Origin: Chitinophaga pinensis | Lineage (GTDB): Bacteria; Bacteroidota; Bacteroidia; Chitinophagales; LD1 | NCBI GenBank assembly: GCA_945867505.1 | Contig: CAMBIM010000005.1 | Location: 1-39,903 of the forward strand | Reading direction: 5' to 3' | Length of the DNA: 39,903 bases | Notes under the pieces: model-generated | What the model was told of the DNA's origin: nothing | What the model saw: the letters and a program-made list of their open reading frames with translations, nothing else | Databases searched by the model: none | Translations under genes and position numbers: made by a program | Shown here: positions 20,633 to 39,903 of the stretch, piece by piece | How the letters are laid out: each line of letters opens with the position of its first letter | How positions within the stretch are numbered: position 1 is the stretch's first letter

Positions 20633-21949
20633 GTGAACCCGCAAAATTATCTTAAACAAACCCTTACTGGAACTGCCTTGGTTATAGCTTCGCTATTGGC
20701 GCTATCGGTAATTCCAGCTTTTGATATTGGCGATTTTCATTTTAAGCGCATCAATACTCTATCTGATATTTTGAAGAAAGAGGTTGTTGTGGTTAATGAT
20801 ACGGTCAAAGCGATGAAGCCTGTGTATGTTGACACCTGCAAAACAGGTATTACCTGCATTGAAGACTACAGCCGCGATACTTCGGGGATGAATGCGTTTC
20901 TTGCTGCCCTCGACTCATCGAAAAGTAAAATCTTGCGAATTGCTTGGTTTGGTGATTCGTATGTGGAAGGTGACATTCTGCTCGACCCTTTGCGCGATAC
21001 TTTACAGGCAATTTTTGGTGGGAGCGGAGTGGGCTTTGTTCCTATTACTTCGGAGGTGTCTGGCTTCCGGCAAACCATTATTCATTCGTTCAGCAACTGG
21101 AAAACGAATGCCATTGTGGGCGAAAGAGACAAAGAACATCCGCTTGGTCCTGCCGGTTTTTCCACGTTGCCGAATGAAGGCAACTATGTTTCATATACTG
21201 CCGAAAAGCGCAATCGTTTAAATTCTTTCCCAACAGCAAAGTTGTTCTACGGTTATTCGGATAGCACAACGGTTATAGTTAACGGAAAGGAAATGTTTAT
21301 TGGCACAGCAGGCTCTATACGGCAAAAGAATTTGGGAGAGAATCTTTCTTCATTAAAACTTTCTGTAAACGGTAAAGCCGATTTGTATGGAGTTGCACTT
21401 GAAAGCAAAACCGGTATCTGCCTCGATAATTTTTCTATGCGCGGCAATTCCGGTATTGGTTTGAATTACGTAAACGAAAAAATGTATCGCGCTTTCGATT
21501 CTATTCATCCTTACGATTTAGTGGTATTGAGTTACGGCTTGAATGTAGCCAACGAAAAGTCGAAGAATTACGATTGGTATGTGCGAAGTATGAAGCCGAC
21601 TATTGCTATGATGAAGCGCGCGTTTCCGAACAGTTCTATTGTGTTAGTTGGTTGCAGCGACCGTGCCGATAATATTGATGGCGAATTGCAAACCATGCCT
21701 TCGGTAAAACGGTTGGTAGAGGTGCAGCGCAAAATGGCTGCAGATAATCAGGTTTGTTTCTGGAATTTATTTGAAGCGATGGGCGGAGATTCTACTATGG
21801 TGAATTGGGCTAACATGCCTAGGCACGCACTGGCAAATAAAGATTATACGCACCTCACTTTTTATGGAGGAAAGAAAGTAGCAGAGATTTTTTTGAGAAC
21901 GATTTTATACGAGAAGGAGAAATATGAAAGAAGGAAGAAGAGTAAATAG
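20633..21949 (+). CDS. Membrane-anchored SGNH/GDSL-like hydrolase, probable O-acetyl(transfer)esterase
   Basis: A 438-aa protein with one N-terminal TM segment (about residues 9-28), so the catalytic part is periplasmic. The start is GTG; an in-frame stop at 20624-20626 rules out an upstream start. Block I is IAWFGDSYVEGD (Ser109 nucleophile). VLSYGLNVANE is at the block III position, with Asn. The C-terminal dyad is DYTHLT (Asp404, His407). GFVPITSEVSGFRQ and NSGIGLNY are further conserved-looking segments. It overlaps the next SGNH gene by 26 nt and an MBOAT gene follows. This arrangement is known from alginate/peptidoglycan/exopolysaccharide O-acetylation systems, where the MBOAT moves acetyl across the membrane and SGNH proteins attach it. 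Substrate unknown. Confidence 0.8.
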   Translation: MNPQNYLKQTLTGTALVIASLLALSVIPAFDIGDFHFKRINTLSDILKKEVVVVNDTVKAMKPVYVDTCKTGITCIEDYSRDTSGMNAFLAALDSSKSKILRIAWFGDSYVEGDILLDPLRDTLQAIFGGSGVGFVPITSEVSGFRQTIIHSFSNWKTNAIVGERDKEHPLGPAGFSTLPNEGNYVSYTAEKRNRLNSFPTAKLFYGYSDSTTVIVNGKEMFIGTAGSIRQKNLGENLSSLKLSVNGKADLYGVALESKTGICLDNFSMRGNSGIGLNYVNEKMYRAFDSIHPYDLVVLSYGLNVANEKSKNYDWYVRSMKPTIAMMKRAFPNSSIVLVGCSDRADNIDGELQTMPSVKRLVEVQRKMAADNQVCFWNLFEAMGGDSTMVNWANMPRHALANKDYTHLTFYGGKKVAEIFLRTILYEKEKYERRKKSK

Positions 21950-23216
21950 TCAACGGCTGACGGCTGGCGGACAACGGATAAAGGTAGGGCGTATGTTAAC
22001 TGTTGTCTGTTGTCTGTTAGCTGTTGTCTGCACTGCACAGAACGCACAAGTAAACTTTACAGCCAAGAGTTACCCGTTTGTTCATAATGAGCGAAACGAA
22101 ATAGTTAACGATAAGGTGCTGGATTCTTTCTTCAGCAAATTGTATATGCAACGCACGCAAAAAAATCAGCGCATTAGTGTTTTACAAATTGGCGATTCGC
22201 ATATTCAGGCAGATTATATCAGTGCAAAAATTCGCACCAATTTCCAGAACGATTTTGGCAATGCCGGCAGAGGTTTGATTGTGCCTATAAAGGTGGCAGG
22301 CAGCAACGAGCCTTTTAATTATCGAATTACAAGCAATGTAAAATGCTACGGTAAGCGTTGCGTTTATGTAAACGATTCATTGGATTATGGCATTGGTGGG
22401 TTTGCTGTAAAGACAAGCGATGATACCGCGCAGTTTCGCATCCGCACGTTTGATTATGCTCCGCTGAATTATGCGTTTAATAAAATGACTTTGTTTTATC
22501 AGCAGGATTCTTCTTACACTTTTTCGTTACAGGATTCGCTGGGTAATATTCTGGGTTCGGTAAAAAAAGATTCTACGCAGTTGCGCAATGTTTCGGTTAT
22601 TCAGTTGCCTACCACTACTAATGAAGTTTATTTGAAAGCGCATCGCAACGATTCATCGGAGAGCTACAGTATTCTTTATGGAATGAATTTAGAGAACGAC
22701 AGCAGTGGCGTGCTTTATCATTCTATAGGAGTAAATGGTGCAGAGGCGTATCAATACGCGCACGCAAAATATTTTGCCGAGCAAACGGCTGTGCTTAAAC
22801 CGGAGGTCATTATTATTTCTTTAGGAACGAATGAAGCGCAGCGCAGACCATTTGATAAAGCACTCACCGAAGCGCGGCTGGATTCTTTAGTAAAGCAATT
22901 GCAGCAGTACAATCCAGGCAAGCCAATCATACTTACCACTCCACCCGATTCGTATTACCGCAGAAAGTATTACAACAGTTCAATTTCTTCTTATCACGTA
23001 ATTGTAGTGGACTACGCCAAAGCCAACAATCTTGCCGTGTGGGATTTATTTTCTGCCACCGGTGGTTACAAAAGCTGTTACCAATGGAAGAAATACGGTT
23101 TAATGCAACGCGATGGCGTGCATTTTACTCGCGGAGGTTACGAGTTGCAGGGGAATCTTTTATACCAAGCTATTATCAAGTCATATAACGAATATGCCGA
23201 GCATAGACATCCATAA
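21924..23216 (+). CDS. Secreted SGNH/GDSL-like hydrolase, second of the O-acetylation cluster
   Basis: A 430-aa protein. Block I is VLQIGDSHIQADYIS (Ser92), block III is ISLGTNEAQ, and the dyad is DGVHFTRGGYEL (Asp397, His400), so the SGNH catalytic set is complete. I use ATG 21924, preceded by AAGGAG at good spacing; ATG 21993 is an alternative that would begin at MLTVVCCLLAVVCTAQ. With the longer start, a basic n-region precedes the hydrophobic core of a signal peptide ending near CTAQ. The signal-peptide region is built of 7-nt repeats (21950-22033). It overlaps both neighbours (26 nt upstream, 23 nt downstream), showing tight translational coupling with the first SGNH gene and the MBOAT gene. 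Confidence 0.82.
   Translation: MKEGRRVNSQRLTAGGQRIKVGRMLTVVCCLLAVVCTAQNAQVNFTAKSYPFVHNERNEIVNDKVLDSFFSKLYMQRTQKNQRISVLQIGDSHIQADYISAKIRTNFQNDFGNAGRGLIVPIKVAGSNEPFNYRITSNVKCYGKRCVYVNDSLDYGIGGFAVKTSDDTAQFRIRTFDYAPLNYAFNKMTLFYQQDSSYTFSLQDSLGNILGSVKKDSTQLRNVSVIQLPTTTNEVYLKAHRNDSSESYSILYGMNLENDSSGVLYHSIGVNGAEAYQYAHAKYFAEQTAVLKPEVIIISLGTNEAQRRPFDKALTEARLDSLVKQLQQYNPGKPIILTTPPDSYYRRKYYNSSISSYHVIVVDYAKANNLAVWDLFSATGGYKSCYQWKKYGLMQRDGVHFTRGGYELQGNLLYQAIIKSYNEYAEHRHP
21950..22033. repeat. Twelve-unit heptanucleotide array with inverted halves at the SGNH gene start
   Basis: Exactly 84 nt in 7-nt register, beginning right after the preceding gene's stop. The first units are TCAACGG, CTGACGG, CTGGCGG, ACAACGG. 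The last are ACTGTTG, TCTGTTG, TCTGTTA, GCTGTTG, close to the reverse complement of the first (CAACAGA-like). The array encodes NSQRLTAGGQR and the hydrophobic signal-peptide core. Confidence 0.85.
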
Positions 23217-24750
23217 ACTGCTGGAGCAGTTTGTTTACCACCCAAAAGAACCGCTGATATTCAGCACCGGTTTTTTTCTGTGGCTGTTTCTGCTTTTTAT
23301 GTGTGGCTTCTATTTGTTGCGAAACAAAAGAGACCCCAAGAAGGTTTACGTTATTCTCTTCTCGCTTTTCTTCTATTACAAAAGCAGCGGCATTTATTTT
23401 CTGCTGCTGATAATGTCAACGGTGGTTGATTACAGCCTTGCTAATTTTATTTACCATGCCGATACACAATGGAAGAAAAAGAGTTGGCTCATTTTTAGTT
23501 TGGTGCTTAACCTCGGGTTGCTTGGCTATTTTAAATACACCAATTTCCTGTACGAAATTTTCTGCAATCTCTCCAATCATCCTTTCGACCCATTCAGTAT
23601 TTTCTTGCCGGTAGGCGTTTCGTTCTTCACGTTTCAATCGTTGAGTTATACTATAGAAATTTATCGGGGCGAATTAAAACCCGTTGACCGCATTATTGAT
23701 TATGCCTTCTTCGTTTCCTTCTTCCCGCAATTGGTTGCCGGGCCTATTGTTCGCGCTAAAGACTTTTTACCGCAGGTAGACCAACCGGTATTAGTTACCC
23801 GACAAATGTTAGGTCAGGCCGTATTCCTGATTGTATCGGGGCTGTTTAAAAAAGTAATTATATCCGATTACATCAGCACCAATTTTGTAGATAGAATATT
23901 TGATAACCCTACGCTCTACACCGGTCTCGAAAATCTGTTCAGCGTGTATGGCTATGCGTTGCAAATTTATTGCGACTTCAGCGGTTACAGCGATATGGCT
24001 ATTGGTATTGCTCTATTGTTTGGTTACAAACTCACTTTGAATTTCGATTCGCCTTATCAATCAAGCAGCATTACCGAATTTTGGAGACGCTGGCATATTT
24101 CGCTTTCTACCTGGCTGCGCGATTACCTGTATATCTCATTAGGCGGCAACCGCAAAGGCAGGGCGCGCACTTACTTCAATCAGTTTATGACCATGTTGCT
24201 GGGTGGCTTGTGGCATGGTGCTGCGTTCCGGTTTATTTTGTGGGGAGCCTTGCACGGTGTGGCGTTGGGGATAGATAAATTTTTAAAGGAATTTGTTTTC
24301 AAAAAACCACCTCCGTCCCGCCCAGAGCTGCGGGACACCTCCGCCAGCGGAGGACAAAGCGTGTCCCCCGCTGGCGGGGGTAGGGGGTGGATAGAAGGTA
24401 AGCTGTTTAAAATAGCCGGTGTAATGCTCACCTTTCACTTTGTTTGTTTCTGCTGGATATTTTTCCGGGCTGATGATATGCAACAAGCGGGCAGTGTAAT
24501 TTCGCAAATTGCTTTTCACTTTACGCCCTCTATCTTTTTCGATTTCATAACCGGTTATCGAAATATACTACTGGTAATGGCTATAGGTTACATGCTTCAC
24601 TTCGTTCCTAAAAATATAGAACTGAAAGCGCAGAACTTGGTGACCAATATGCCGCTTGCCGGCAAAGTAGCTTTGGTGGTTTGCATGATTGTCGTCCTTA
24701 TACAGGTAAAGAGCAGTAACGTGCAGCCGTTTATTTATTTTCAATTTTAA
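23194..24750 (+). CDS. MBOAT-family O-acyltransferase (AlgI/DltB-like)
   Basis: A 518-aa polytopic membrane acyltransferase. I start it at ATG 23194 (MPSIDIHKLLEQF), 23 nt inside the previous gene, because upstream codons only read through that gene. Family motifs: FLPVGVSFFTFQSLSYTIEIYRGE, FFPQLVAGPIVRAKDFLPQ, YCDFSGYSDMAIGIALLFGY, FWRRWHISLSTWLRDYLYI and LGGLWHGAAF with the catalytic His341. These match the AlgI branch, which passes acetyl groups across the inner membrane to SGNH partners. The two upstream SGNH genes would complete the O-acetylation system. Odd feature: codons about 373-399 (RPELRDTSASGGQSVSPAGGG) come from a GC-rich palindromic element placed in a loop between conserved helices, in frame. 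Confidence 0.93.
   Translation: MPSIDIHKLLEQFVYHPKEPLIFSTGFFLWLFLLFMCGFYLLRNKRDPKKVYVILFSLFFYYKSSGIYFLLLIMSTVVDYSLANFIYHADTQWKKKSWLIFSLVLNLGLLGYFKYTNFLYEIFCNLSNHPFDPFSIFLPVGVSFFTFQSLSYTIEIYRGELKPVDRIIDYAFFVSFFPQLVAGPIVRAKDFLPQVDQPVLVTRQMLGQAVFLIVSGLFKKVIISDYISTNFVDRIFDNPTLYTGLENLFSVYGYALQIYCDFSGYSDMAIGIALLFGYKLTLNFDSPYQSSSITEFWRRWHISLSTWLRDYLYISLGGNRKGRARTYFNQFMTMLLGGLWHGAAFRFILWGALHGVALGIDKFLKEFVFKKPPPSRPELRDTSASGGQSVSPAGGGRGWIEGKLFKIAGVMLTFHFVCFCWIFFRADDMQQAGSVISQIAFHFTPSIFFDFITGYRNILLVMAIGYMLHFVPKNIELKAQNLVTNMPLAGKVALVVCMIVVLIQVKSSNVQPFIYFQF
24315..24380. repeat. GC-rich triple-palindrome element inserted in the MBOAT gene
   Basis: Three adjacent palindromes: GTCCCGC...GCGGGAC (24315-24336), CCTCCGC-CA-GCGGAGG (24338-24353) and CCCCCGC-TG-GCGGGGG (24365-24380). 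The G+C richness stands out sharply from the AT-rich gene around it. The whole is read in frame as a Pro/Ser/Gly/Arg-rich loop. It resembles dispersed CCGCCAGCGG palindromes I associate with Bacteroidota intergenic regions. Confidence 0.88.
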
Positions 24751-25892: not shown

Positions 25893-26387
25893 ATGAATCT
25901 TTCATTCCGAAAAGCTACCGGTGATGATGTTGAACTCATTAATGAGTTGGCGCAAAAAATTTGGCACGAACATTATCCGGCTATTATAGCTATGGAGCAG
26001 ATTGAGTTTATGTTGCTCAATCGCTATTCTTTAAAAGTTATTGCTGAAGGAATGCAAAACGCAGAAGAGTATTTTCTTGTTTACGATAATGATGTTCCGG
26101 TAGGCTATTCTTCTATTGAATGGAAAGACGGCTTTTATTACCTGAACAAATTTTATTTAGATGTAGCTAAACACCGCAGCGGAATAGGGAAGGAGTTGTT
26201 CGATTATGTGCTCTCGCAAATAGATTCAACAAAGCCAATCAAGCTGCAAGTAAACCGCACTAACTGCAAAGCCATTAATTTTTATTTCAAACTCGGTTTC
26301 GTAATACAAACTGTTGGCGACTTTGATATTGGAGGAGGATATTTTATGAATGATTTTGTGATGGTGAGGAACCCTTTAGGGGTTTAG
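25893..26387 (+). CDS. GNAT-family N-acetyltransferase
   Basis: A 164-aa acetyl-CoA-dependent acetyltransferase. It has the GNAT opening (LSFRKATGDDVELINELAQKIW), the acetyl-CoA pyrophosphate-binding motif A as FYLDVAKHRSGIGKELFDYVL (R95-x-x-G-x-G-K100), and motif B with INFYFKLGFV. The substrate amine is unknown. It starts 8 nt after the alcohol dehydrogenase gene and probably shares its transcript. Its last 12 nt overlap the convergent gene on the other strand, and the coding end passes through a small AACCC...GGGTT hairpin. Confidence 0.9.
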   Translation: MNLSFRKATGDDVELINELAQKIWHEHYPAIIAMEQIEFMLLNRYSLKVIAEGMQNAEEYFLVYDNDVPVGYSSIEWKDGFYYLNKFYLDVAKHRSGIGKELFDYVLSQIDSTKPIKLQVNRTNCKAINFYFKLGFVIQTVGDFDIGGGYFMNDFVMVRNPLGV

Positions 26388-27278
26388 AAGTTTAAAGCGA
26401 ATAGAATCAATCTTATACTTCAATCTTCTTCCCAAACTTTTTCCTTCCATTTCTAAAACCTGATGCGTTCTAAAAGAAGGGTTCAGCATCCATTTCAATA
26501 ATCGTTTATAAAGCGGCAACTCTGAATAAGGGAACTTACGAATATCGAGCAGGTGTTTTATCTGCGGGTAAATCTTTTGCTCATATTCATTCCGGTTGTG
26601 CAAATAATACTCTTGAGTTAATGGAGGCATTACTTCCGTTCCAATATGGAAAGTAAGATGCAGGTCGTCTACTAACTTAAGTCTTTCAGCAAACGCAATC
26701 ATGTTGTGTAGTAACGCTACTTCGCTGAATGAAACGCCCACACAAATATTTTCAAGAATAAATTTGTTCAGCAACTCACGTTTAAAAACAAAACAATCAA
26801 AGCCCGGATGTGGCTTGCCGAAATCGGCATACATAAGCGGCAATTCTTCAACCGATTTATATTTTGTTGAAATTCCTCTGCGGTTAATCAGTAAAGCGTC
26901 AAACCCTTCTTTCAATAGTTCTGCTACAGTTGTATAGAACTGCGGCATCAACGAAATATCCATGTTGGTGAAAACTAAATACTCTGCATCGCTCGCGTTG
27001 TATAAGGCTGTAAGAACATCTGTTAGTACCGGATACTTTTTTGTGCCTGCAAATTTTTTTATATCCTGAACGGAACGTAAAAGATTAGGCAGTTGAGTAA
27101 AGTGGTTGGGGACAATTTCTCTATCCTCTTCATAGCACACGGTATAAAGTTCTACATCAACTTTATCGGTTGAAAATTCTTTCGCCACTCTTATACTTTC
27201 AAAAGTTATGGGCTGCGCAATACCTAATTCAGATGCAGCAGGAACTTTTACGGGATTAATGATGTGAGCGAGTTTCAT
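26376..27278 (-). CDS. Glycosyltransferase-like protein of uncertain specificity
   Basis: A 300-aa soluble-looking protein without a signal peptide. It begins MKLAHIINPVKVPAASELGIAQPITFESI. It then has features of a GT-A nucleotide-sugar transferase fold: a strand-helix start, EYLVFTNMDISLMPQFY (NMD in the place of a DxD metal motif) and LLINRRGIS; HPGFDCFVFKRELL resembles the acceptor-loop part of capsule or surface glycan enzymes. I cannot assign a family with certainty. It is convergent with the GNAT gene (12-nt overlap) and divergent from glutathione peroxidase (98-nt gap). Surface glycan synthesis is plausible but unproven. Confidence 0.6.
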   Translation of the reverse strand: MKLAHIINPVKVPAASELGIAQPITFESIRVAKEFSTDKVDVELYTVCYEEDREIVPNHFTQLPNLLRSVQDIKKFAGTKKYPVLTDVLTALYNASDAEYLVFTNMDISLMPQFYTTVAELLKEGFDALLINRRGISTKYKSVEELPLMYADFGKPHPGFDCFVFKRELLNKFILENICVGVSFSEVALLHNMIAFAERLKLVDDLHLTFHIGTEVMPPLTQEYYLHNRNEYEQKIYPQIKHLLDIRKFPYSELPLYKRLLKWMLNPSFRTHQVLEMEGKSLGRRLKYKIDSIRFKLLNP

Positions 27279-29182: not shown

Positions 29183-32100
29183 ATGAGAAAACGTTTATTC
29201 TCCCAAACCACCACATTAAGAGTTTTATTTTTCACAACTATTTTGTTTTGCTTAAGCAAAATAGCCATAGCGCAGTGTGGACTTAGCGCATTTAACGAAG
29301 GCGGTACACTCACCCCTACAGCCGCATGGACAAACGTGAGTGTGGGTAGCGGTACCTATACTAATTTCAACGCACAGCCCGGAAGGATTTACTCCTTTAA
29401 CTACGTTACAAACTCTGCGGTTTTACCGTACGTTTGGGATTTAACTTTGTCTACTTCATCGGGTGTTTTGAATTATAACAACTCTTTAACTCCAATTCGC
29501 GACCCTTGGACAGGTGGAGCATGCCCTCCTATTATCAGACCACAATCATCAGAATGGTGGTCAGGTACATTTAATGGATTAGTTACCGCAAATACAAATG
29601 CTTATAACACGAGTAATAGCACTTGTAATGCGTGGGTTCCAGGTCAAGGCTCTGCAATTTTATCATATAAAGAATGTATACCAACACCCGACCTTGGTTC
29701 TGGAAATAACTCATGGAATGTAGAAGCCTTTGCCACTGCTGATATTAACATACCGATACCCGATGCACGATACGGATTGTATACAGACAACAATTTGAAT
29801 TTTGTAACTACAGCTTTTTGGGCAGCTAACAGCAACCCCTCTACTGCTGCCAGTTGGTTAGGATGCGAAGTTCCTAACGATAATTTTGCTATTCGCGCAA
29901 GAAGAACAGGTTTTCCTTGCGGTTTGTACACTATTTCTGACAATAATCATGACGACAATCTACGCATTTACGTAAATGGAGCATTGATATATGATGTATC
30001 TGGCGGTGCTCCGGCTGGCGTGGTTGGAAACCCAGCAGGGTATGTTTTAAGCTCTACAGATAATGTTGAAGTTCGTTTAGTAGATGTTTGTGCACCTGGA
30101 GTTGCAGATGTTGGAATAAATTTACAACCCCTTCCAATTTTAAGTGGAGGAACCATTGGTGGAGTTATTGATAATTCATCAGTATGTGAAGGTATCGCAA
30201 TAGGTAATTTCACTAATGCTGCCGCTGCAAGCGGTGGTACTGTAGGTTTTCCAAATGGAGGCAACTTTACTTATGATTGGGAACTTTCAACTGATGGAGG
30301 AGGTTCATTTAGTTCTGTAGGTGTTTCTACTGACACATGGAATAGTTCTACCATTGTACCTGTAGGTTCAACCTATGTAATAAGGAGAAAAGTAACTGAC
30401 CATTGTGGTTCGGTTGCTTACTCAAATACCATAACCGTTATAGGCAGACCGACACCTAATGCAAGTATGTCTCCAATCAGTCAGACTATTTGCCCGGGAA
30501 CTTCTGCATCTCTTACTATTGATTTGAATCCAGGAAATGGACCTTTTAATATTGGTTACACAGATGGGGTTAGTAATTTTTCTGGATCCGGTTTAAACAC
30601 TGGCGATGCTATTACAGTAAGTCCAACCCTTAGCCCAACTATTTACTCATTTACCACGCTTACTGATGTTTATGGTTGTACAAGAACTTCTGGTTTTACA
30701 GGAGGTGCGTCTGTAAGTGTTGTGCCGAATATTACTTATAATTCGGTTACATCTACCGATGTTTTATGCAACGGAGGAAATACCGGAACAATTACCGTAA
30801 ATGCACAAGGTGGAAACGGGGGACTTGAATATTCAGTAGATGGAGGAGTAAACTATCAGCCGTCAAATATTTTTACTGGGTTAATAGCAGGAACATATAA
30901 TGTATATGTGAAAGATAATTTTGGTTGCATTCAACCATACGGAACACCAGTGATAGTTGCAGAACCAACTGATGTTACCCAAACCCTCATTGGCGTTGAT
31001 GCCAGTTGTGCTAACGTATTCGATGGAACTATTACTATTACCCCAAATGGTGGAATTGGGCCATATAACTACTCATTAAATGGTGGGCCTCTTCAACCGG
31101 GTAATGTTTTTAATGGCATTGCAGCGGGAAACTATTTAGTTAGTGTTTACGACTCCAATAATTGTTTAGATACTGCGAGTATTGCCATTGGCAATACTTA
31201 TATTATATCTGTTACTATAGATACGCAAGCCAATGTTTCTTGTATTGGTGCCGCAGATGGTTCATTTACAGTTCAAGTAAATGGTGGTATTCCGGCTTAT
31301 TCGTACTCTATTAACGGGGTTACCTATCAGTCATCGGGAACTTTTACTGGTTTAAGTGCAGGAACTTACATTGTAATTGGTCGAGATTCTAAAGGTTGCA
31401 CAGAAACAGTTAACGTAACTATTGCACCGCCAGCTCCAATTATTGTAGCTGTAGATTCTTTTAATAATGTTTTGTGTAATGGCACTGCAACTGGAAATGT
31501 ATTTATTTCTGTTAGCGGAGGAACCCCGGGTTATACGTTTAATTGGAACACAGGACCAACAACAGAAGATTTAATTGGCATACCAGCAGGAGTATACACT
31601 GTTACAGTTGCCGATTCAAGAGGATGTTTATCTACTGCATCTGCTACTATTACAGAGCCGCTTCCTTTATTCTTAAATATAGCTTCTTACAACGATTTAT
31701 TGTGTTCTGGAGATTCTTCAGGTGCTATTGATGTTACCGCTAATGGTGGCGTTCCGGCATATACGTATTTGTGGAGCAATGGTGAAGTTTCAGAAGATAT
31801 TGACGAACTTAAACTTGGTACATACACTGTTACGGTTACAGATAATAACGGATGCACAACAACTATTTCACAAGTTATTAATGAGCCTACACCTTTGATT
31901 ATCACAGCTACAAGCGTAGATGTAACTTGTTATGGTGGTTCTAACGGTTCTATTAACGTCAGTGTAACAGGTGGCACACCCTCATATTCTTTCCTTTGGT
32001 CAACTTTTGAAACTTCAGAAGATATTGCAAACTTGCAAGCAGGTACTTATAACGTAATAGTTTCTGACAATAACGGGTGCCAGCAAAACCAATCAGTAAC

Positions 32101-34267
32101 TATAAATCAACCAACAGAGTTAGTTCTTTCTACAGTAGTAACTCAAATTTCTTGTTTTAATACCTGTGATGGATCAATTGATTTAACCGTAACTGGCGGC
32201 ACTCCTAACTATACTTACAATTGGAGCAACGGTGAAACAACAGAAGACATAGCCTCTTTATGTGGAGCCATATACGTTGTTACAATTACTGATGATGATG
32301 GATGTACAGCCTCTACTTCAGCAACTATTGTAGCTACGGCACCAATCAATACCAGCTTTATTATTAAAAACCCTTTATGCTTTGGTGAGGCCAATGGTTC
32401 AATTGATTTAATCCCCTCTGGAGGAACATTCCCTTATACATTCAACTGGAGTAATGGATTTACCACGGAAGATTTAGCAAACATTGGAGACGGTGTTTAC
32501 ATCATAACAATAACCGATTCTAGGAATTGCGTTAAGGTAGATTCTACAGAATTGGTAGAGCCAAGTGCTATTTATACTTCTGGATTTATTAAGAATGTAT
32601 CTTGTAATGGAAACAACGATGGATTTATAGACATTACTGCATACGGAGGCACTTTGCCTTATGGCTTTAACTGGTCATGGGGGCCCTCTACCGAAGATTT
32701 AGGTAACTTACCGGGAGGCAATTATACTGTAACTGTAACTGACGTTAACGGTTGTCAGGCAGCTTCACTTTATGTAGTTACGGAACCTACGGTTCTTAAT
32801 GTGCAAGCTGTAGGAACTGATATTTCATGTTTTGGAGGATGTAATGGTTCTGTTGCTGCTATTCCAACGGGCGGAACAACTCCATACGAGTATCTATGGA
32901 ATAACTTTATTCCAGATTCTACTCAATCAGGCTTATGTGCAGGGAAGTATATTGTGTTACTGACCGATTCGAATGGTTGCCACACTTACGACAGTATTAA
33001 TATTGTTGAACCATCTGAAATTAGTATTACAGGTGTTGTTACTAATGTTTTCTGTAACGGATTTAATACAGGTTCAATTATTGTAACCGTTGGTGGTGGA
33101 ACTCCTGGCTATACTTTCTCATGGTCTAACGGAGAAACTACTCAAAGCATTACTGGTCTTGTAGCTGGAACTTATAGCGTTACTGTTACAGATAACAGAG
33201 GATGTATTAAAACAGCCACTTTTGTTGTTGCAGAATCAAATGGTATGTATACCAACGTATCTATTAATGCTCCAAAATGTTTCGGAGGAAACGATGCGTT
33301 TGTTTCTGTAGAAATTACTGGAGGCACACCTCCTTACGTTTATACATGGAATACAACTCCATCGCAACCTGGTGCTACAGCTACTAATTTGCAAGCTGGT
33401 GTTTATGAATTGACAATTACAGACGTGAATAGCTGTTCTGCAACTGTTTCTGCAACTGTAGCAAGTCCAAACCCGATAACTATTTCTACAAATCCTACTA
33501 ACTCGAAATGTTACAATACTTCTACTGGAGTAGTAGTAGCAACAGCAACAGGTGGTCAGCCTCCATACATTTATGAATTAAATGGAATAATTCAAAGTTC
33601 TAATACGTTCGTTAATTTGGGAGTGGGAACATACATTATAGCTGTGCGCGATGCTAATGGCTGTGAAGCAACTAAGAACTTTGATATACTATCTCCTGTG
33701 CCGGTAACAGTTGATTTAGTGGCACCACAAATAGTTATATTGCAAGGAATGACAGTTCCGTTGATAGCAACAGCTAATTCTCCTAACTCTCCAATTGTTA
33801 ATTATATATGGGAGCCAGGTGCAGACTCAATTTTCAATTTTAGTAATTGCGCAGATGCAACTAATTGCTTTAATCCAAACGTAACACCGCAATATACTAC
33901 TGTATTTACGGTTACAGTTATGAACGCAGATTCATGCTATGCTTCTGATACGGCAACTATTATAGTTGAAGCTAAACCATCAGCGTTTATACCGTCAGCA
34001 TTTACACCAAACGGTGACAATTTGAACGACCGATTTGAATTTGATATTCTTGGTGCAACAAACATTAATATCCAAATTTTTGACCGTTGGGGACATAAAA
34101 TATATGATAATCCTACTCAACTAAATGGTACAAATAGCGGTAGTGGATGGGATGGTAAAAATGAAGGTAAGGCATTGCCTTTCGATACGTATGTTTGGCA
34201 AATGAAGGTAACCTACTTTGATGGTCTTGTAAAAGACCAAAGCGGTACGGTTACAATTATGAAATAG
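29183..34267 (+). CDS. SprB-repeat giant surface adhesin with T9SS type B (gliding motility-associated) C-terminal domain
   Basis: A 1694-aa cell-surface protein. Signal peptide: residues 1-30 (CLSKIAIA, cut before QC). Residues 31-320 form a Cys-containing head domain (AWTNVSVGSGTYTNFNAQPG, WNVEAFATADI, IRARRTGFPCGLY). Two Ig-like units follow (about 321-520). Residues 523-1508 hold 13 SprB repeats. Each repeat starts with C-x-G-x3-G-x-I/V, has a GG-xP-Y-x-Y/F-x-W core and ends with an NGC-like Cys. A PKD-like spacer precedes the C-terminal domain at 1600-1694 (PSAFTPNGDNLNDRF, IFDRWGHKIY, GWDGKNEGK), which directs export by T9SS and surface attachment. SprB-type proteins serve as gliding adhesins in Flavobacterium; the role here is inferred. 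Closed by a terminator; its paralogue follows 83 nt later. Confidence 0.93.
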   Translation: MRKRLFSQTTTLRVLFFTTILFCLSKIAIAQCGLSAFNEGGTLTPTAAWTNVSVGSGTYTNFNAQPGRIYSFNYVTNSAVLPYVWDLTLSTSSGVLNYNNSLTPIRDPWTGGACPPIIRPQSSEWWSGTFNGLVTANTNAYNTSNSTCNAWVPGQGSAILSYKECIPTPDLGSGNNSWNVEAFATADINIPIPDARYGLYTDNNLNFVTTAFWAANSNPSTAASWLGCEVPNDNFAIRARRTGFPCGLYTISDNNHDDNLRIYVNGALIYDVSGGAPAGVVGNPAGYVLSSTDNVEVRLVDVCAPGVADVGINLQPLPILSGGTIGGVIDNSSVCEGIAIGNFTNAAAASGGTVGFPNGGNFTYDWELSTDGGGSFSSVGVSTDTWNSSTIVPVGSTYVIRRKVTDHCGSVAYSNTITVIGRPTPNASMSPISQTICPGTSASLTIDLNPGNGPFNIGYTDGVSNFSGSGLNTGDAITVSPTLSPTIYSFTTLTDVYGCTRTSGFTGGASVSVVPNITYNSVTSTDVLCNGGNTGTITVNAQGGNGGLEYSVDGGVNYQPSNIFTGLIAGTYNVYVKDNFGCIQPYGTPVIVAEPTDVTQTLIGVDASCANVFDGTITITPNGGIGPYNYSLNGGPLQPGNVFNGIAAGNYLVSVYDSNNCLDTASIAIGNTYIISVTIDTQANVSCIGAADGSFTVQVNGGIPAYSYSINGVTYQSSGTFTGLSAGTYIVIGRDSKGCTETVNVTIAPPAPIIVAVDSFNNVLCNGTATGNVFISVSGGTPGYTFNWNTGPTTEDLIGIPAGVYTVTVADSRGCLSTASATITEPLPLFLNIASYNDLLCSGDSSGAIDVTANGGVPAYTYLWSNGEVSEDIDELKLGTYTVTVTDNNGCTTTISQVINEPTPLIITATSVDVTCYGGSNGSINVSVTGGTPSYSFLWSTFETSEDIANLQAGTYNVIVSDNNGCQQNQSVTINQPTELVLSTVVTQISCFNTCDGSIDLTVTGGTPNYTYNWSNGETTEDIASLCGAIYVVTITDDDGCTASTSATIVATAPINTSFIIKNPLCFGEANGSIDLIPSGGTFPYTFNWSNGFTTEDLANIGDGVYIITITDSRNCVKVDSTELVEPSAIYTSGFIKNVSCNGNNDGFIDITAYGGTLPYGFNWSWGPSTEDLGNLPGGNYTVTVTDVNGCQAASLYVVTEPTVLNVQAVGTDISCFGGCNGSVAAIPTGGTTPYEYLWNNFIPDSTQSGLCAGKYIVLLTDSNGCHTYDSINIVEPSEISITGVVTNVFCNGFNTGSIIVTVGGGTPGYTFSWSNGETTQSITGLVAGTYSVTVTDNRGCIKTATFVVAESNGMYTNVSINAPKCFGGNDAFVSVEITGGTPPYVYTWNTTPSQPGATATNLQAGVYELTITDVNSCSATVSATVASPNPITISTNPTNSKCYNTSTGVVVATATGGQPPYIYELNGIIQSSNTFVNLGVGTYIIAVRDANGCEATKNFDILSPVPVTVDLVAPQIVILQGMTVPLIATANSPNSPIVNYIWEPGADSIFNFSNCADATNCFNPNVTPQYTTVFTVTVMNADSCYASDTATIIVEAKPSAFIPSAFTPNGDNLNDRFEFDILGATNINIQIFDRWGHKIYDNPTQLNGTNSGSGWDGKNEGKALPFDTYVWQMKVTYFDGLVKDQSGTVTIMK
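30749..33706 (+). repeat. Array of 13 SprB-type repeats (protein-level, ~75 aa period)
   Basis: The first Cys codon of successive repeats is at 30767, 31007, 31241, 31475, 31703, 31928, 32153, 32378, 32603, 32828, 33053, 33278 and 33509. The intervals are 240, 234, 234, 228, then 225 seven times, then 231 nt. Repeats share the C-x-G, GG-xP-Y, TED(I/L)-x-x-L-x-G-Y-x-V-T-V-x-D-x-x-GC pattern; nucleotide identity is modest, so these are old units. Confidence 0.93.
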
Positions 34268-34279
34268 ATTTCAATACAT

Positions 34280-34311
34280 CTCCCTTGCTTTTTATTAAGC
34301 AAGGGAGTTTT
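34280..34311 (+). terminator. Rho-independent terminator after the first adhesin gene
   Basis: CTCCCTTGCTT (34280-34290) pairs perfectly with AAGCAAGGGAG (34297-34307), with a 6-nt loop and a T-run after it. It lies 12 nt after the stop, so the second adhesin gene at 34351 probably needs its own promoter or read-through. Confidence 0.92.
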
Positions 34312-34350
34312 GATTTATAGACACACAAGTATTATTTAAAATTCTGTATT

Positions 34351-37300
34351 ATGAATAAGCACATGCTCTCTGGCACAAATGCTTCTTTTAAGAGATTTAC
34401 ACTTACCCTTGCTGTTTTTTTCTCCTTTATTTTTTCTTTTGAACTTTATGCCCAATGCGGGCTAAGTCCGTTTGTGCAAGGGGCTACCTTGACTCCAACA
34501 ACAGCTTGGACGAATGTAAGCGTTGGTAGCGGCACGTATATTAATTTTAACGTTACTAATGGTAATTTCTATTCGTTTAGGTATACCACAGCGAACTCTA
34601 ACCTAGGAGGGGCGAATTTGTGGGATATGACACTTTCCAATAGCTCAACGGCTCTCGCTTATAATAATTCTTCTACCCCCATTAATGACTCTTGGACTAA
34701 TGGAGCTGGTTGTCCTCAATCTACCAGCCCAACTTCGGCAGAGTGGTATTCTACATTCACTGGTCTACTACGCGTAAATACAAAAACAGATGTTAGTGGA
34801 ACATGCACAAACTGGATATCGGGACAAAATTCAGCTGTATTGCAATATAAAACTTGTGCACCTGCTGCTGATCCGGGTTCAGGAAGTAATGTCTGGAATG
34901 TAGAAGCTTTTGCAACAACAGATATATCTATTCCCAATACAAATGCACGCTACGGATATTATGTAGATAATAGCTTAAATTTCGTTACTACATCAAGTTG
35001 GGCGGTTGGATCAAATCCTTCAACAGCTTCTGGGTGGACAGGCTGTGGATCTGGAGGTGGAGGGCTCTTGATGCCAAACGACAACTTCACAATTCGTGCT
35101 CGCAGAACTGGTTTCCCATGTGGTCTATATAGAATTTTCGTAAATAATTCAGATGATAACATTCGTGTTTTAGTGAACGGAAATCAAATCTTTAATGCTA
35201 CTTGTTGTATCAGTACATCTACCCAAATTGGGAACGTAGCAGGATATGTTCTATCTTCCACTGATATAGTAGAAATTAGATTAATGGACGAATGTGGTGG
35301 TGGCCAAGCCAATGTAAGTTTTGTAGCACAAACACCACCTACTCTTACAGAGGCAACTATTGGATCTAACCAAAGTTTTTGTGGAACGGCAACACCAGCA
35401 GCATTGTCAGGTGTTGCAGCAACAGGTGGTTACGGAACCGCTTACATTGGTGGGTCTTATACTTACGACTGGAAATATTTAGATGGATGTGTGCCACCTG
35501 TAGTAGCAGTTGGTTTAAACAGCACATCAATAGCTCCTCCATCATTAACAGCAACACGTTGCTATGTAAGGACAGTGGAAGATAAATGCGGAAATGTTGA
35601 AAATTCTAATTTAGTAACAATTACCATAAACACGCCTTCAGTAGCACCGAGTTCTATTACCGGTACAAGTCTGATATGTAACGGACAAAGCACCACACTT
35701 AACGTTAGTGGCGGCTCTCTAGGCACTGGTGCAACTTGGCAATGGTATACGGGAAGTTGTGGAGGTACACCAGCAGGAACAGGCGCTTCTCTTCCTGTTA
35801 GCCCAATAACTACAACCACATATTATGTAAGAGCGGAAGGAACTTGTAACAATACAGCGTGCGCTCAAGTAACAGTTACAGTTAATAACCCTTCTGTAGC
35901 ACCTACAGGGGTTACAGGAATTACTACTATATGCAATGGAGGTACTACCACGCTTAACGTTGCTGGCGGTTCGTTAGGTACTGGTGCAGATTGGGCATGG
36001 TATAGCGGAAGTTGTGGAGGTAGTTTTGTTGCGAATGGACCATCAATTACTATTTCACCTTCCATCACCACTACTTACTTTGTAAGAGCTGTGGGTTCTG
36101 CCCCATGTACTTACCCTAGTGCCTGCGCTTCTGCAACTGTAACTGTCAACACACTTTCAGTTGCTCCCACTTCAATTTCAGGAACAACTACAATTTGTCA
36201 AGGAAGTTCAACAAATCTTACTGTGGTTGGCGGTTCCCTTGGCACTGGTGCAACTTGGCAATGGTATACGGGAAGTTGCGGAGGTACCCCAGCAGGAACA
36301 GGTGCTTCTCTTCCTGTTAATCCCCTAACAACAACTACTTACTATGTGCGCGCGGAAGGAACTTGTAACAATACAACGTGCGCTCAAGTAACGGTGATAG
36401 TTAATGACCCTTCTGTAGCACCTACAGGAGTTACAGGAATTACTACTATATGCAATGGAGGAGCTACCATACTGACCGTTGCGGGAGGTTCTTTAGGTAA
36501 TGGTGCTAACTGGCAATGGTATAGTGGAAGTTGCGGTGGAACATTTGTAGGTAGCGGAACTTCTGTTACTATATCACCTACAACAAGTACAACCTATTAT
36601 GTAAGAGCTGAGGGGCCATCCCCTTGTAATACTACTACAGCTTGTGCATCTCAATTGGTAACTGTTAATACACTTTCTACCGACCCTGTTTCTATTTCAG
36701 GAACAATCACTATTTGTGGGGGATTGTCAACTAATCTTACTGTGGTAGGCGGCTCCTTAGGTACAGGTGGTGTATGGACTTGGTATGCCGGAGGTTGCGG
36801 CACAGGCTCTTCCGTAGGTACGGGTGCTACTATAACAGTTACCCCAACCGCATCTACCAGTTACTATGTTCGTGCGGAAGGAACTTGTAATACAACCAAT
36901 TGTACATTTACTCCAGTTACAGTTAACGATTCATCAATAGTTGCTTCTTCTATTACAGGTTCGCCAGCAATATGCATAGGTGGTTCAACTAACCTTGCGG
37001 CAGTTGGTGGTTATTTGGGAGTAGGAGCTAACTGGCGTTGGTATAGCGCAAGTTGCGGAGGTACGTTGGTTGGAACAGGCACTCCAATATCAGTGTCACC
37101 TACAACAACTACTACCTATTATTTACGAGCAGAAGGTTTGTGTAATACCACAGTATGTATTCCATTTACAGTAACAGTAAATCCTCTACCCAACGGAAGT
37201 ATTGCCGGTTCTGCAACAGTTTGTTACGGAGTAGATACCACTGTTACCTTTAACTTTGCTGTAGGAACTGCCCCATTTGATGTGGTTTACACGGACGGAA

Positions 37301-39903
37301 CAAATACCTTTACAAAAACTAGTGTAAGCAATGGAGATACTATTCAGGTATTTCCACTTACTACTACTACTTATACTATTCAACAAATTACCGATAACAA
37401 TGGTTGCGTGAGAAGCACTGGATTCCTAGGAGCTGCAACAGTTACTATTGCGCCACTTCCGGTGGTTAATAGTGTAGTTGAAAACGATGTACTTTGTAAC
37501 GGTGGAAATACTGGTTCAATTAGTGTTACCGCTACAAACGGTACACCTACTTATACTTACTCTAACGACAATGGAGTTACTTACCAAGGCAGTAACGTTT
37601 TTAATGGACTTATAGCTGCAACCTATCAAATATTTATTCAAGATGTATTGGCTTGTAGATCTGCTTTGGCATATCCTGTTGTAGTAGGCGAGCCAACTGC
37701 TCTTACTCATATTGCAACTCCGCAAAATGCAAGTTGCGATAATGTATTTGATGGAAGTATAACGGTGAGTGCCTCTGGCGGTATTTTGCCATATAACTAC
37801 TCATTGAATGGCGGCCCAACGCAACCAGGTAATTTTTTCAATGGCTTATCTGCAGGAACCTATACCGTTTTAGTAACCGATGACAATGCTTGTACCAATT
37901 CCTCTACCGTAATTATTGATACAGCTTATGCTGTTTACGGAAGTTTAGTTTCGCAAACAGCTGTATCATGCTTTGGTGGAGTAGATGGAACTGTAACCGT
38001 TCAATTAACTGGTGGCGTTCCTCCTTATGCATACTCAATCAATGGTGTTCAATTCGTAGCTTCTCCAACCTTTACTGGTTTAGCTTCGGGTAATTATGTA
38101 GTTACGCTTCGCGATTCTAAAGGTTGTACTGATTTTGTTAATGTAACCATTGCACAGCCAAATCAATTGCAGGCGCAAATTGATTCAGTGATTAACATAG
38201 GATGTAGCGGAGCTAGCTCTGGTGCTATCTATATTACTGTAAGCGGAGGCAATCCAACTTATAACTTCTTGTGGAGTAACAGTGCTGTATCGGAAGACGT
38301 AACCGGATTGACTGCCGGAACTTACAATGTGGCTATTACTGATTCTAAAGGTTGCACTTCTTCTGTAGGAGCTACTATTTCTCAGCCACTTCCATTATTT
38401 GTAAACGTAGCTTCTTATAACGATTTAAGATGTTTCAACGATTCAACAGGTTCTATTGATGTTACTGTAAATGGAGGTGTGCCACCTTACAATTTTGCAT
38501 GGAGTAGCGGAGATATAACCGAAGATTTGACAAACTTAGATGCTGGTACATATTCGCTTACTGTTACTGACGCTAACGGATGCCAACAATTTATTTCAAG
38601 AACACTTACAGAGCCGGCTATGCTTGCATCGGGCACGGTGGTTACCAACTTAACTTGTAATGGTTCAAATGACGGAGATATTAACCTAACTGTAACTGGA
38701 GGAACTTTACCTTTTTCTTACTTATGGAGTAATGGACTTGTAACTGAAGACTTAACCGCTATTGCAGCAGGATCATATACTGTTGTTATAACTGATGCTA
38801 ATGGATGTGGTACATCGAATACTTCAGTGGTTACTCAACCGGATGCTTTGGTTCTTTCTACTACTATAACTAATGCAGGATGTAACGGAGCAGCAACTGG
38901 AGCTATTGACTTAGAAGTAACAGGCGGCACAGGCGCATATACTTACGAATGGACGGGTGGCGGAGCGACTCAAGACACCAGTAACTTGTTGGCAGGAACT
39001 TATGTAGTAACAGTTACCGATGCTAATAATTGTACGGCTACTGCATCTGCTACCATTTCACAACCAGCACAAGCATTAAATTCAACTATATCCGCTACAG
39101 ATGTTACTTGCTACGGTGCGAGTGATGGAACAGTAAACTTAACGGTAACAGGGGGAACACAACCTTATTCTTACTCTTGGAGCAATAACGCAAATACCGA
39201 AGACCTTACCAGTTTAGGACCTGATACTTATTCAGTAACTATTACGGATGCCAATTTATGCACCACGGTTACAAGTATTGTGGTGAACGAGCCGGATACT
39301 CTTGTAGCAACTATTGCAGGAACTGACGTTTCTTGTTTTGGAGGAAACGATGGTGCGGCTAACCTTACCGTAACAGGAGGAAATGGAGGATACGTTTACT
39401 TATGGAGTAACTTCGCAGGGACAGAAGATTTATCATCGCTTACTGCGGCCAACTATGTAGTTATTGTAAACGATGCTAAAGGATGCCAGGCAATTACAAG
39501 TGTTGTTATTGCGCAACCTGCACAATTAGTTATTTCAGGAGTTGTTACCAACGTATTGTGTAATGGTGCTGCTACTGGAGAAATAAACTTAACTATAAGC
39601 GGTGGTATCGGTTCATACACTTATGCTTGGACAGGCGGTGGTGCTACAGAAGATACCAGCGGTTTGGTTGTAGGAACTTATTCAGTTACTGTAACAGACG
39701 GAAATAACTGTACTGCTACAGCAACTTATACAATCACCCAACCTACTGCACTTTTATTGAATGCTACGACCACGGATGTAGGTTGTGCAGGCGGAGCGAA
39801 TGGTTCAATAGACATTACAGTTCAGGGCGGAGTATTCCCATACAGTTTTGCCTGGAGCAACGGTTCGGTTACAGAAGATGTGAACGGATTGAGCGGAGGC
39901 AGC
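34351..39903 (+). CDS. Second SprB-repeat giant adhesin, paralogue of the upstream gene (3' end outside window)
   Basis: The frame is open from ATG 34351 to the last base (1851 codons, no stop), so the C-terminus is outside. Signal peptide: residues 1-34 (ELYA, cut before QC). Residues 35-330 are the same head domain as in the upstream adhesin (AWTNVSVGSGTYINFN, WNVEAFATTDI, IRARRTGFPCGLY). One Ig-like unit follows, then six extra Ig-like units (about 430-943; TWQWYTGSCGG, TTTYYVRAEGTC), one Ig-like unit equivalent to the second of the upstream gene, and at least 11 SprB repeats from residue ~1043. A type B T9SS domain is expected off the edge but not seen. Codon 5 (ATG 34363) is an alternative start. 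The pair probably arose by tandem duplication. Confidence 0.92.
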   Translation, partial: MNKHMLSGTNASFKRFTLTLAVFFSFIFSFELYAQCGLSPFVQGATLTPTTAWTNVSVGSGTYINFNVTNGNFYSFRYTTANSNLGGANLWDMTLSNSSTALAYNNSSTPINDSWTNGAGCPQSTSPTSAEWYSTFTGLLRVNTKTDVSGTCTNWISGQNSAVLQYKTCAPAADPGSGSNVWNVEAFATTDISIPNTNARYGYYVDNSLNFVTTSSWAVGSNPSTASGWTGCGSGGGGLLMPNDNFTIRARRTGFPCGLYRIFVNNSDDNIRVLVNGNQIFNATCCISTSTQIGNVAGYVLSSTDIVEIRLMDECGGGQANVSFVAQTPPTLTEATIGSNQSFCGTATPAALSGVAATGGYGTAYIGGSYTYDWKYLDGCVPPVVAVGLNSTSIAPPSLTATRCYVRTVEDKCGNVENSNLVTITINTPSVAPSSITGTSLICNGQSTTLNVSGGSLGTGATWQWYTGSCGGTPAGTGASLPVSPITTTTYYVRAEGTCNNTACAQVTVTVNNPSVAPTGVTGITTICNGGTTTLNVAGGSLGTGADWAWYSGSCGGSFVANGPSITISPSITTTYFVRAVGSAPCTYPSACASATVTVNTLSVAPTSISGTTTICQGSSTNLTVVGGSLGTGATWQWYTGSCGGTPAGTGASLPVNPLTTTTYYVRAEGTCNNTTCAQVTVIVNDPSVAPTGVTGITTICNGGATILTVAGGSLGNGANWQWYSGSCGGTFVGSGTSVTISPTTSTTYYVRAEGPSPCNTTTACASQLVTVNTLSTDPVSISGTITICGGLSTNLTVVGGSLGTGGVWTWYAGGCGTGSSVGTGATITVTPTASTSYYVRAEGTCNTTNCTFTPVTVNDSSIVASSITGSPAICIGGSTNLAAVGGYLGVGANWRWYSASCGGTLVGTGTPISVSPTTTTTYYLRAEGLCNTTVCIPFTVTVNPLPNGSIAGSATVCYGVDTTVTFNFAVGTAPFDVVYTDGTNTFTKTSVSNGDTIQVFPLTTTTYTIQQITDNNGCVRSTGFLGAATVTIAPLPVVNSVVENDVLCNGGNTGSISVTATNGTPTYTYSNDNGVTYQGSNVFNGLIAATYQIFIQDVLACRSALAYPVVVGEPTALTHIATPQNASCDNVFDGSITVSASGGILPYNYSLNGGPTQPGNFFNGLSAGTYTVLVTDDNACTNSSTVIIDTAYAVYGSLVSQTAVSCFGGVDGTVTVQLTGGVPPYAYSINGVQFVASPTFTGLASGNYVVTLRDSKGCTDFVNVTIAQPNQLQAQIDSVINIGCSGASSGAIYITVSGGNPTYNFLWSNSAVSEDVTGLTAGTYNVAITDSKGCTSSVGATISQPLPLFVNVASYNDLRCFNDSTGSIDVTVNGGVPPYNFAWSSGDITEDLTNLDAGTYSLTVTDANGCQQFISRTLTEPAMLASGTVVTNLTCNGSNDGDINLTVTGGTLPFSYLWSNGLVTEDLTAIAAGSYTVVITDANGCGTSNTSVVTQPDALVLSTTITNAGCNGAATGAIDLEVTGGTGAYTYEWTGGGATQDTSNLLAGTYVVTVTDANNCTATASATISQPAQALNSTISATDVTCYGASDGTVNLTVTGGTQPYSYSWSNNANTEDLTSLGPDTYSVTITDANLCTTVTSIVVNEPDTLVATIAGTDVSCFGGNDGAANLTVTGGNGGYVYLWSNFAGTEDLSSLTAANYVVIVNDAKGCQAITSVVIAQPAQLVISGVVTNVLCNGAATGEINLTISGGIGSYTYAWTGGGATEDTSGLVVGTYSVTVTDGNNCTATATYTITQPTALLLNATTTDVGCAGGANGSIDITVQGGVFPYSFAWSNGSVTEDVNGLSGGS
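35641..37185 (+). repeat. Six Ig-like domains arranged as three ~519-nt two-domain units
   Basis: The key Cys codon of the six domains is at 35677, 35932, 36196, 36451, 36715 and 36973 (intervals 255, 264, 255, 264, 258). Domains 1, 3 and 5 are 519 nt apart; domains 2 and 4 are 519 nt apart and 4 and 6 are 522. Domains 1 and 3 are nearly identical in DNA around GGCACTGGTGCAACTTGGCA (35722 and 36241). Domains 2 and 4 share CCTTCTGTAGCACCTACAGG-like sequence (35890 and 36409). The third unit is more diverged. Confidence 0.92.
37480..39903 (+). repeat. SprB-type repeat array of the second adhesin (at least 11 repeats, cut by window edge)
   Basis: The first Cys codons are at 37495, 37735, 37969, 38203, 38431, 38656, 38881, 39109, 39334, 39559 and 39784. 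The intervals are 240, 234, 234, 228, 225, 225, 228, 225, 225 and 225 nt. The first six intervals equal those of the upstream adhesin. Repeats 7 and 10 (678 nt apart) are unusually alike (CNGAATG, then WTGGGAT-x-DTS), hinting at a three-repeat internal duplication. Confidence 0.92.

Follow-up and report, generated by a model that had tools for sequence, protein, structure and literature searches.

Introduction

SprB of Flavobacterium johnsoniae is a 669-kDa T9SS gliding adhesin, and PorP-like barrels serve as the surface anchor of proteins with type B C-terminal domains (CTDs) (PMC9143113). The locus described here shares with SprB the SprB repeats, a type B T9SS C-terminal domain and, in the family of its second gene, giant size, but it adds a PA14-like head and an Ig_7 neck and has no sprF-like gene on the window's side. 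RTX adhesins, namely MpPA14 of Marinomonas primoryensis and a Marinobacter adhesin, likewise combine a PA14-type domain with a long stalk of repeats (PMC8092209, PMC6650083); these rely on type I secretion and an RTX stalk, whereas our locus has T9SS proteins with an SprB/Ig stalk and a head without a direct PA14 profile match. Domain exchange among Bacteroidota surface proteins is represented by the gingipains and HagA of Porphyromonas gingivalis (PMC5266723), which involve other domains and one species, while here the heads and necks of giant adhesins are concerned, across species of a genus. Neighbouring giant surface-protein genes with intragenic recombination are likewise found in the Giant1-5 cluster of Apilactobacillus kunkeei, although the proteins are unrelated to ours and the authors found no recent gene conversion between neighbours (PMC12863079). 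Both PA14 and CHU_C, which we see here as well, appear in a survey of fibrillar adhesin-like domains, the former as an adhesive domain of promiscuous occurrence and the latter as an anchor of Bacteroidetes, but its main text is silent on SprB and, as far as consulted, on exchange between loci (PMC8286594).

Exchange of adhesin domains is thus already known (PMC5266723, PMC10952558); what is new here is that it can be seen in the head, neck and stalk of giant T9SS adhesins that form a pair. Contig breaks often remove giant Bacteroidota adhesins from assemblies, and their evolution is poorly seen. At the present locus, stalk, neck and head each move as a unit of their own between T9SS adhesin genes, both adjacent and unlinked. 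Our best explanation of the whole, to which we assign a probability of about 70%, is that two adjacent genes encode T9SS type B adhesins with a short and a long stalk, and that gene 2, the long-stalk form, is an old giant paralog, nearest in kin to an unlinked giant family, from which it received a tract of ~3 kb (the neck of six Ig_7 domains, Ig2 and the first SprB repeats) by recombination.

The adhesin pair

The window, which is the whole stretch of 39,903 nucleotides that was analysed, comprises the entire contig C5 of the draft genome G000, from an uncultured member of the Bacteroidota, so that base 39903 is the contig end. G000 is a draft metagenome assembly of 2.94 Mb in 309 contigs (74% complete). 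Sixty related genomes were searched with the head of the two proteins, which was found in 20 of them. A sequence-only reading of the window had proposed a tandem pair of paralogous SprB-type adhesins, and the two ORFs that it delimited are indeed present in tandem on the forward strand (Table 1), with heads that match at E 6.5e-87 and an identity of 57-62%, varying with the alignment. The domain order it described holds as well: in both proteins a signal peptide that ends before QCGLS is followed by the same head, an Ig-like unit (Ig1), a second Ig-like unit (Ig2) containing the quoted core (GPFNIGYTDG or APFDVVYTDG) and an SprB array. These shared modules go far beyond chance.

Table 1. Positions of the two adhesin genes, their modules and the intergenic hairpin in the window
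Feature	Position	Strand	Description	Basis
Gene 1, T9SS adhesin	29183..34267	+	complete, 1694 aa	
Gene 1 modules in order	29183..34267	+	signal peptide, head, Ig1, Ig2, 13 full SprB repeats, pre-CTD, CHU_C type B sorting domain	
Gene 1 head	29273..30136	+	N-terminal half to ~29689, unknown fold; PA14-like half ~29690-30136	alignments, intermediate proteins, weak structural support
Gene 1 Ig1	30164..30445	+	gene-1 type	alignment, Ig1 tree
Gene 1 Ig2	30455..30730	+	GPFNIGYTDG core	alignment
Gene 1 SprB array	30743..33712	+	13 repeats; nearly all best-match same position in other species' gene 1	
Gene 1 sorting domain	33989..34252	+	CHU_C / TIGR04131, type B T9SS	Pfam, NCBIfam
Hairpin	34280..34307	+	between the genes; 11 pairs, then T-rich tail; 43 nt before gene 2; z -6.3	
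Gene 2, giant T9SS-type adhesin	34351..39903	+	cut by contig end, 1851 aa present	
Gene 2 head	34453..35340	+	gene 1 type; nearest G017 gene 2, next gene 1 heads of G008, G006	
Gene 2 Ig1	35359..35631	+	other type than gene 1 Ig1; groups with G006/G008 gene 2 and G024	
Gene 2 neck	35638..37188	+	six Ig_7 domains; two-domain internal period, offset ~520 nt, 73% DNA identity	
Recombinant tract	35638..38631	+	neck, Ig2 and first SprB repeats; follows unlinked C3-type giant gene, not G017 ortholog	
Gene 2 Ig2	37189..37461	+	APFDVVYTDG core; inside recombinant tract	
Gene 2 SprB array	37471..39903	+	11 repeats seen, continues past contig end	

Gene 1 is constant in its build. In ten genomes, G000 counted, its product has 1687-1711 aa and 13 full SprB repeats, and the repeats of the G000 protein correspond position by position in their best matches to those of G017 and, with one exception, to those of G006. 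Its C-terminal sorting domain exceeds both cut-offs (CHU_C and TIGR04131, 49.8 and 47.2 bits). Judged by its repeats, gene 1 is a rigid, conserved short-stalk form with 13 fixed units. Longer copies of 1914-1971 aa occur as single copies in G001, G018 and G021 and as the upstream copy in G004. In G014, gene 1 is split (L054:4283-9323), its sorting domain being encoded in a second, overlapping ORF, which reflects a frameshift or an assembly error; the near-identical copy in G015 is intact.

Gene 2 is longer than gene 1, as the sequence-only reading had stated, with at least 1,851 aa here and 3,661-4,067 aa in those relatives where it is complete and the gene order agrees. Pfam detects 11 SprB stretches (PF13573, E 1.1e-99) in gene 2 and 13 in gene 1 (E 1.4e-111), as well as the six Ig_7 domains, which only gene 2 has. 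This block had been called the only large difference between the two proteins, a description that is too simple: their first Ig-like units are of differing types (100/100 split), their SprB arrays are in register over just about the first six units, and gene 2 breaks off where the contig stops, at 39903. The second C-terminal domain that had been expected further downstream would lie where the contig provides no sequence, and the last 400 bases of gene 2, used as a DNA query, matched no overlapping contig.

A candidate for the missing 3' tail of gene 2 is present elsewhere in the draft genome. Contig C47 (L152:3-3059) encodes 1018 aa that bear a C-terminal sorting domain and are 55-58% identical to the ends of the gene 2 proteins of G006, G008 and G004, against 51% to gene 1 of the same genome. 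In trees, C47 groups with these three tails (99/99; 96 SH-aLRT in a second tree). The tail tree with SH-aLRT values only separates a gene 1 group (98), the gene 2-type giants with C47 (96) and the C3 group of unlinked giants (99), and it places the gene 2-type giants as sister to the C3 group (97), not to gene 1. The complete downstream partners comprise 3661 aa in G006, 4067 aa (as joined) in G008 and 3701 aa in G004, each with at least 31 SprB units; in G017, gene 2 too is cut by a contig end, with 16 or more full units ahead of it, among which some recur as near-copies. A rigid short gene thus stands beside an expandable giant at one locus.

Mosaic structure of gene 2

Gene 2 is a mosaic. 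In windows of 80 residues, positions 31-430 match the G017 ortholog (G017_2) best, 431-1390 match the giant encoded on contig C3 or its relatives in G014, G015 and G016, and 1391-1851 return to G017_2. The C3 giant is an unlinked gene of the same draft genome (G000_C, L189:4309-12303, 2665 aa present). More precisely, residues 1-428 and 1428-1851 follow the ortholog, and 430-1427 follow the unlinked giant. Six windows across the neck score 306-356 with the C group and 118 or less with all other groups. Residues 418-1851 are 65% identical to the C3 protein over 1443 columns, whereas the best gene 1 alignment reaches 43%; at the DNA level, the tract shares 74% with the C3 gene over 2.7 kb. Of the informative sites within the SprB region, 93 are C-like and 18 ortholog-like to the left of residue 1428, against 41 and 133, respectively, to its right. 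A breakpoint near this residue yields a maximum chi-square of 98.7, a value that none of 2000 permutations reached. We infer that a C3-type gene was the donor and that the exchange ran from it into gene 2.

The neck at the same place in G017_2 is unrelated to that of gene 2 and of a kind common to G004_2, while the necks of G006_2 and G008_2 are of a third kind. Necks of differing kinds therefore occur across the giants and none in gene 1, which defines the neck as a variable slot that is empty in gene 1.

Age and origin of the pair

In G017, orthologs of both genes stand in tandem beside the same upstream gene, which we take to encode the DNA polymerase III delta prime subunit HolB and which directly precedes gene 1 in the window; the heads of these orthologs are 80% and 75% identical to those of G000. 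The pair thus predates the split between G000 and G017. In G016, gene 1 likewise adjoins HolB, but is not followed by a gene 2. The order of gene 1 followed by a giant gene, which the sequence-only reading had suggested looking for in related genomes, recurs not only in G017 but also in G006, G008 and G004, there at other chromosomal addresses; a 659-aa gene near the G006 and G008 loci is presumably gyrB. The gene 2 head is 66% identical to that of G008_1, 62% to that of G006_1 and 60% to that of its own neighbour. The two heads resemble each other far more than they resemble unrelated proteins, a comparison on which the earlier proposal of local duplication was to stand or fall, but they resemble those of gene 1 in other species no less. 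With the tandem orthologs in G017 and a gene 2 head that is not closest to its neighbour, the pair is no recent local copy. In the head tree, both the local gene 1 head (AU p 0.24) and those of G006_1 and G008_1 (p 0.37) are admissible as sisters of the gene 2 head; when type B heads are added, gene 2 heads can adjoin these (86/86). Recent gene conversion between genes 1 and 2 of G000 was considered and rejected, their longest common exact DNA being 18 bases and fourfold sites being saturated; the exchanges are not datable because of this saturation.

Head and Ig1 of gene 2 point in different directions. Among gene 1 orthologs, mean identity is 52% in the head and 50% in Ig1. Gene 2 is 56% identical to gene 1 in the head and 31% in Ig1, whereas the corresponding values against the proteins with type B heads are 32-37% and 44-48%. 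The Ig1 tree splits into two types (100/100), and both G000_2 and G017_2 fall into the type of the giants. In gene 2, a head of the gene 1 type has most likely been joined to an Ig1 of the giants' type, as these identities and the tree suggest, although fast divergence of the type B heads could account for this apparent head capture instead.

Similar rearrangements are found in relatives. G004_2 starts with the head, Ig1 and Ig2 of G004_1 (82-86%), continues with its own neck and a second Ig2 resembling that of G000_2 (59%), and has SprB repeats that group with those of G006_2 and G008_2 (99/98). The stalk of G016_C is 78% identical to that of G000_C over 2145 columns, but its head is of the gene 0 type (55% to G006_0), while the head of G000_C matches those of G014_C and G015_C (56-57%). 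G024 combines a giant-type head and Ig1 with a tail that groups with G018 and G021 (100/99). Gene 0 is a further T9SS type B protein of ~1,030-1,670 aa with varied heads, which adjoins gene 1 upstream near gyrB in G006 (L049), G007 (L073), G008 (L072), G010 (L057) and G013 (L058); the G006/G007 version of its head is the one that recurs on the G016_C stalk.

How did the pair arise? The sequence-only reading had explained it by tandem copying of the whole of gene 1, after which the six-domain block was either acquired by the copy or lost from the original. Adjacency, common strand, colinear modules, the identity of the heads and the register of the first SprB repeats would all agree with this, and paralogy with a like tip stands. 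Local duplication followed by block gain finds no such support: G017 has orthologs of both genes, the gene 2 head is not closest to the local gene 1 and its Ig1 is of the other type, SprB repeats 1-4 and the giant tails lie apart from the gene 1 proteins, and the block sits inside a tract of ~1,000 residues common to the unlinked family, which the neck tracks together with its adjoining repeats. We therefore regard such a copy as improbable. An older whole-gene duplication, before the genus, would leave gene 2 orthologous throughout, its head included, with fast-evolving type B heads in G006, G008 and G024 and with the neck tract as the only exchanged part. The trees of tails and of SprB repeats 1-4, which part gene 1 from the giants, fit this view, as does the head tree in which the gene 1 group opposes gene 2 plus the type B heads; the branch to the type B heads is long, however, and the reversal of identities between head and Ig1 argues against a head inherited together with the rest of the protein, which makes this history rather unlikely.

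An assembly or binning artefact that joined two genes of the same or another species would be conceivable in a draft metagenome of 309 contigs, which break within SprB repeats. We consider it very improbable, since the tract has diverged from the C3 gene in both protein and DNA and is hence no collapsed copy, the frame is kept over both junctions, and like exchanges occur in other genomes; with edges at domain borders in addition, a metagenome chimera is an unlikely origin of the tract. Our preferred reading, an old giant paralog that was later recombined, accommodates the mosaic and the discordant head. Whether it extends to a general tip-exchange system, in which the downstream giants of this genus repeatedly take the head or whole 5' end of their short upstream neighbour and swap necks with unlinked giants, we suggest only tentatively. 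If it does, a cell could present the same binding tip on stalks of both kinds, short and very long, and tips would spread through a pool of interchangeable stalks. As a caution, whole-gene trees or calls of tandem duplication can mislead where giant adhesins are concerned.

Relatives of the pair were also searched for on viral contigs, where none was found; the sole strong match in a scan of genome contigs was a contig of G016.

The head domain

Direct comparison did not relate the head to PA14: none of 11 heads matched the Pfam profile (PF07691) at E values up to 10, and the head had no useful match among PDB sequences. Intermediate proteins provide the connection. A profile of the second half of the head matches repeated domains in ORFs of G006:C19 and G008:C1 (best 1e-38); one domain in each of these ORFs is PA14 by Pfam over the cut-off, and the head profile matches the same domains (E 3.8e-7 and 5.1e-6). 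AlphaFold models of the whole head from three sequences had a pLDDT of 31, and a model of the PA14-like half a mean of 55, with 56 residues at 70-90. A structure comparison with this low-confidence model matched PA14 structures (E 5e-3 to 3e-2), including weakly the PA14 domains of RTX adhesins, but also other beta-sandwiches, and the best Z was 7.3; in VIA-align, PA14 structures did not stand out from the rest. Most heads retain the DD of the PA14-like motif, which is lost in those of G010 and G013. The profile links give good support to a distant relationship between the second half of the head and PA14. By analogy with known PA14 adhesins (PMC8092209, PMC6650083), the head might bind sugars.

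Proposed function

Both adhesins would be exported via the Sec pathway and T9SS and held at the outer membrane by their C-terminal domain. The N-terminal head, with its distant PA14-type (sugar-binding-like) domain, would then bind a ligand from the end of a stalk of Ig-like and SprB units, with gene 1 holding it on a short stalk and gene 2 presenting a matched tip on a longer one. A difference in reach is plausible from length alone, and we infer that the two proteins act as short-reach and long-reach adhesins. In this lineage, gene 2 would have been rebuilt from a C3-type tract and a gene 1-type head on a giant-type Ig1. Such a defined system of paired short and long stalks with like tips could reveal whether stalk length or tip sets the target of adhesion.

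The hairpin between the genes has counterparts in the same gap in G017, G006, G008 and G004; their sequences differ, and in four of the five loci the hairpin lies close before gene 2. It may tune the expression of gene 2, possibly by permitting read-through at a reduced level, which is only a guess because 43 bases separate it from gene 2.

With regard to anchoring, G000 contains 13 PorP-family matches. None of the window genes scanned was an sprF/PorP-like neighbour, the downstream side lying past the contig. A GldJ-like match in G000 reaches 369.5 bits, under the curated 458.2, and matches in the other 17 congeners are similar.

Genomic context

Across the genome, at least 150 SprB repeats over the cut-off are spread over ~20 large ORFs on many contigs, and several of these SprB-bearing ORFs are cut by contig ends. 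The 2.9-Mb draft genome encodes a large pool of giant adhesins.

Upstream of the pair lie ordinary cellular genes, among them those for a glutathione peroxidase and an acetyltransferase. An ORF of 300 aa on the reverse strand (26376-27278), without Pfam match, is 82% identical to its G017 counterpart. Further upstream, two ORFs for GDSL-type hydrolases are followed by an MBOAT acyltransferase gene with partial overlaps (20633-24750), an arrangement that looks like a polysaccharide O-acetylation cluster. The 1124-aa amidase encoded at 7078-10452 combines GBD_T9SS_assoc with a weak Ig_7 and a weak type A T9SS sorting domain, and is probably a secreted cell wall hydrolase.
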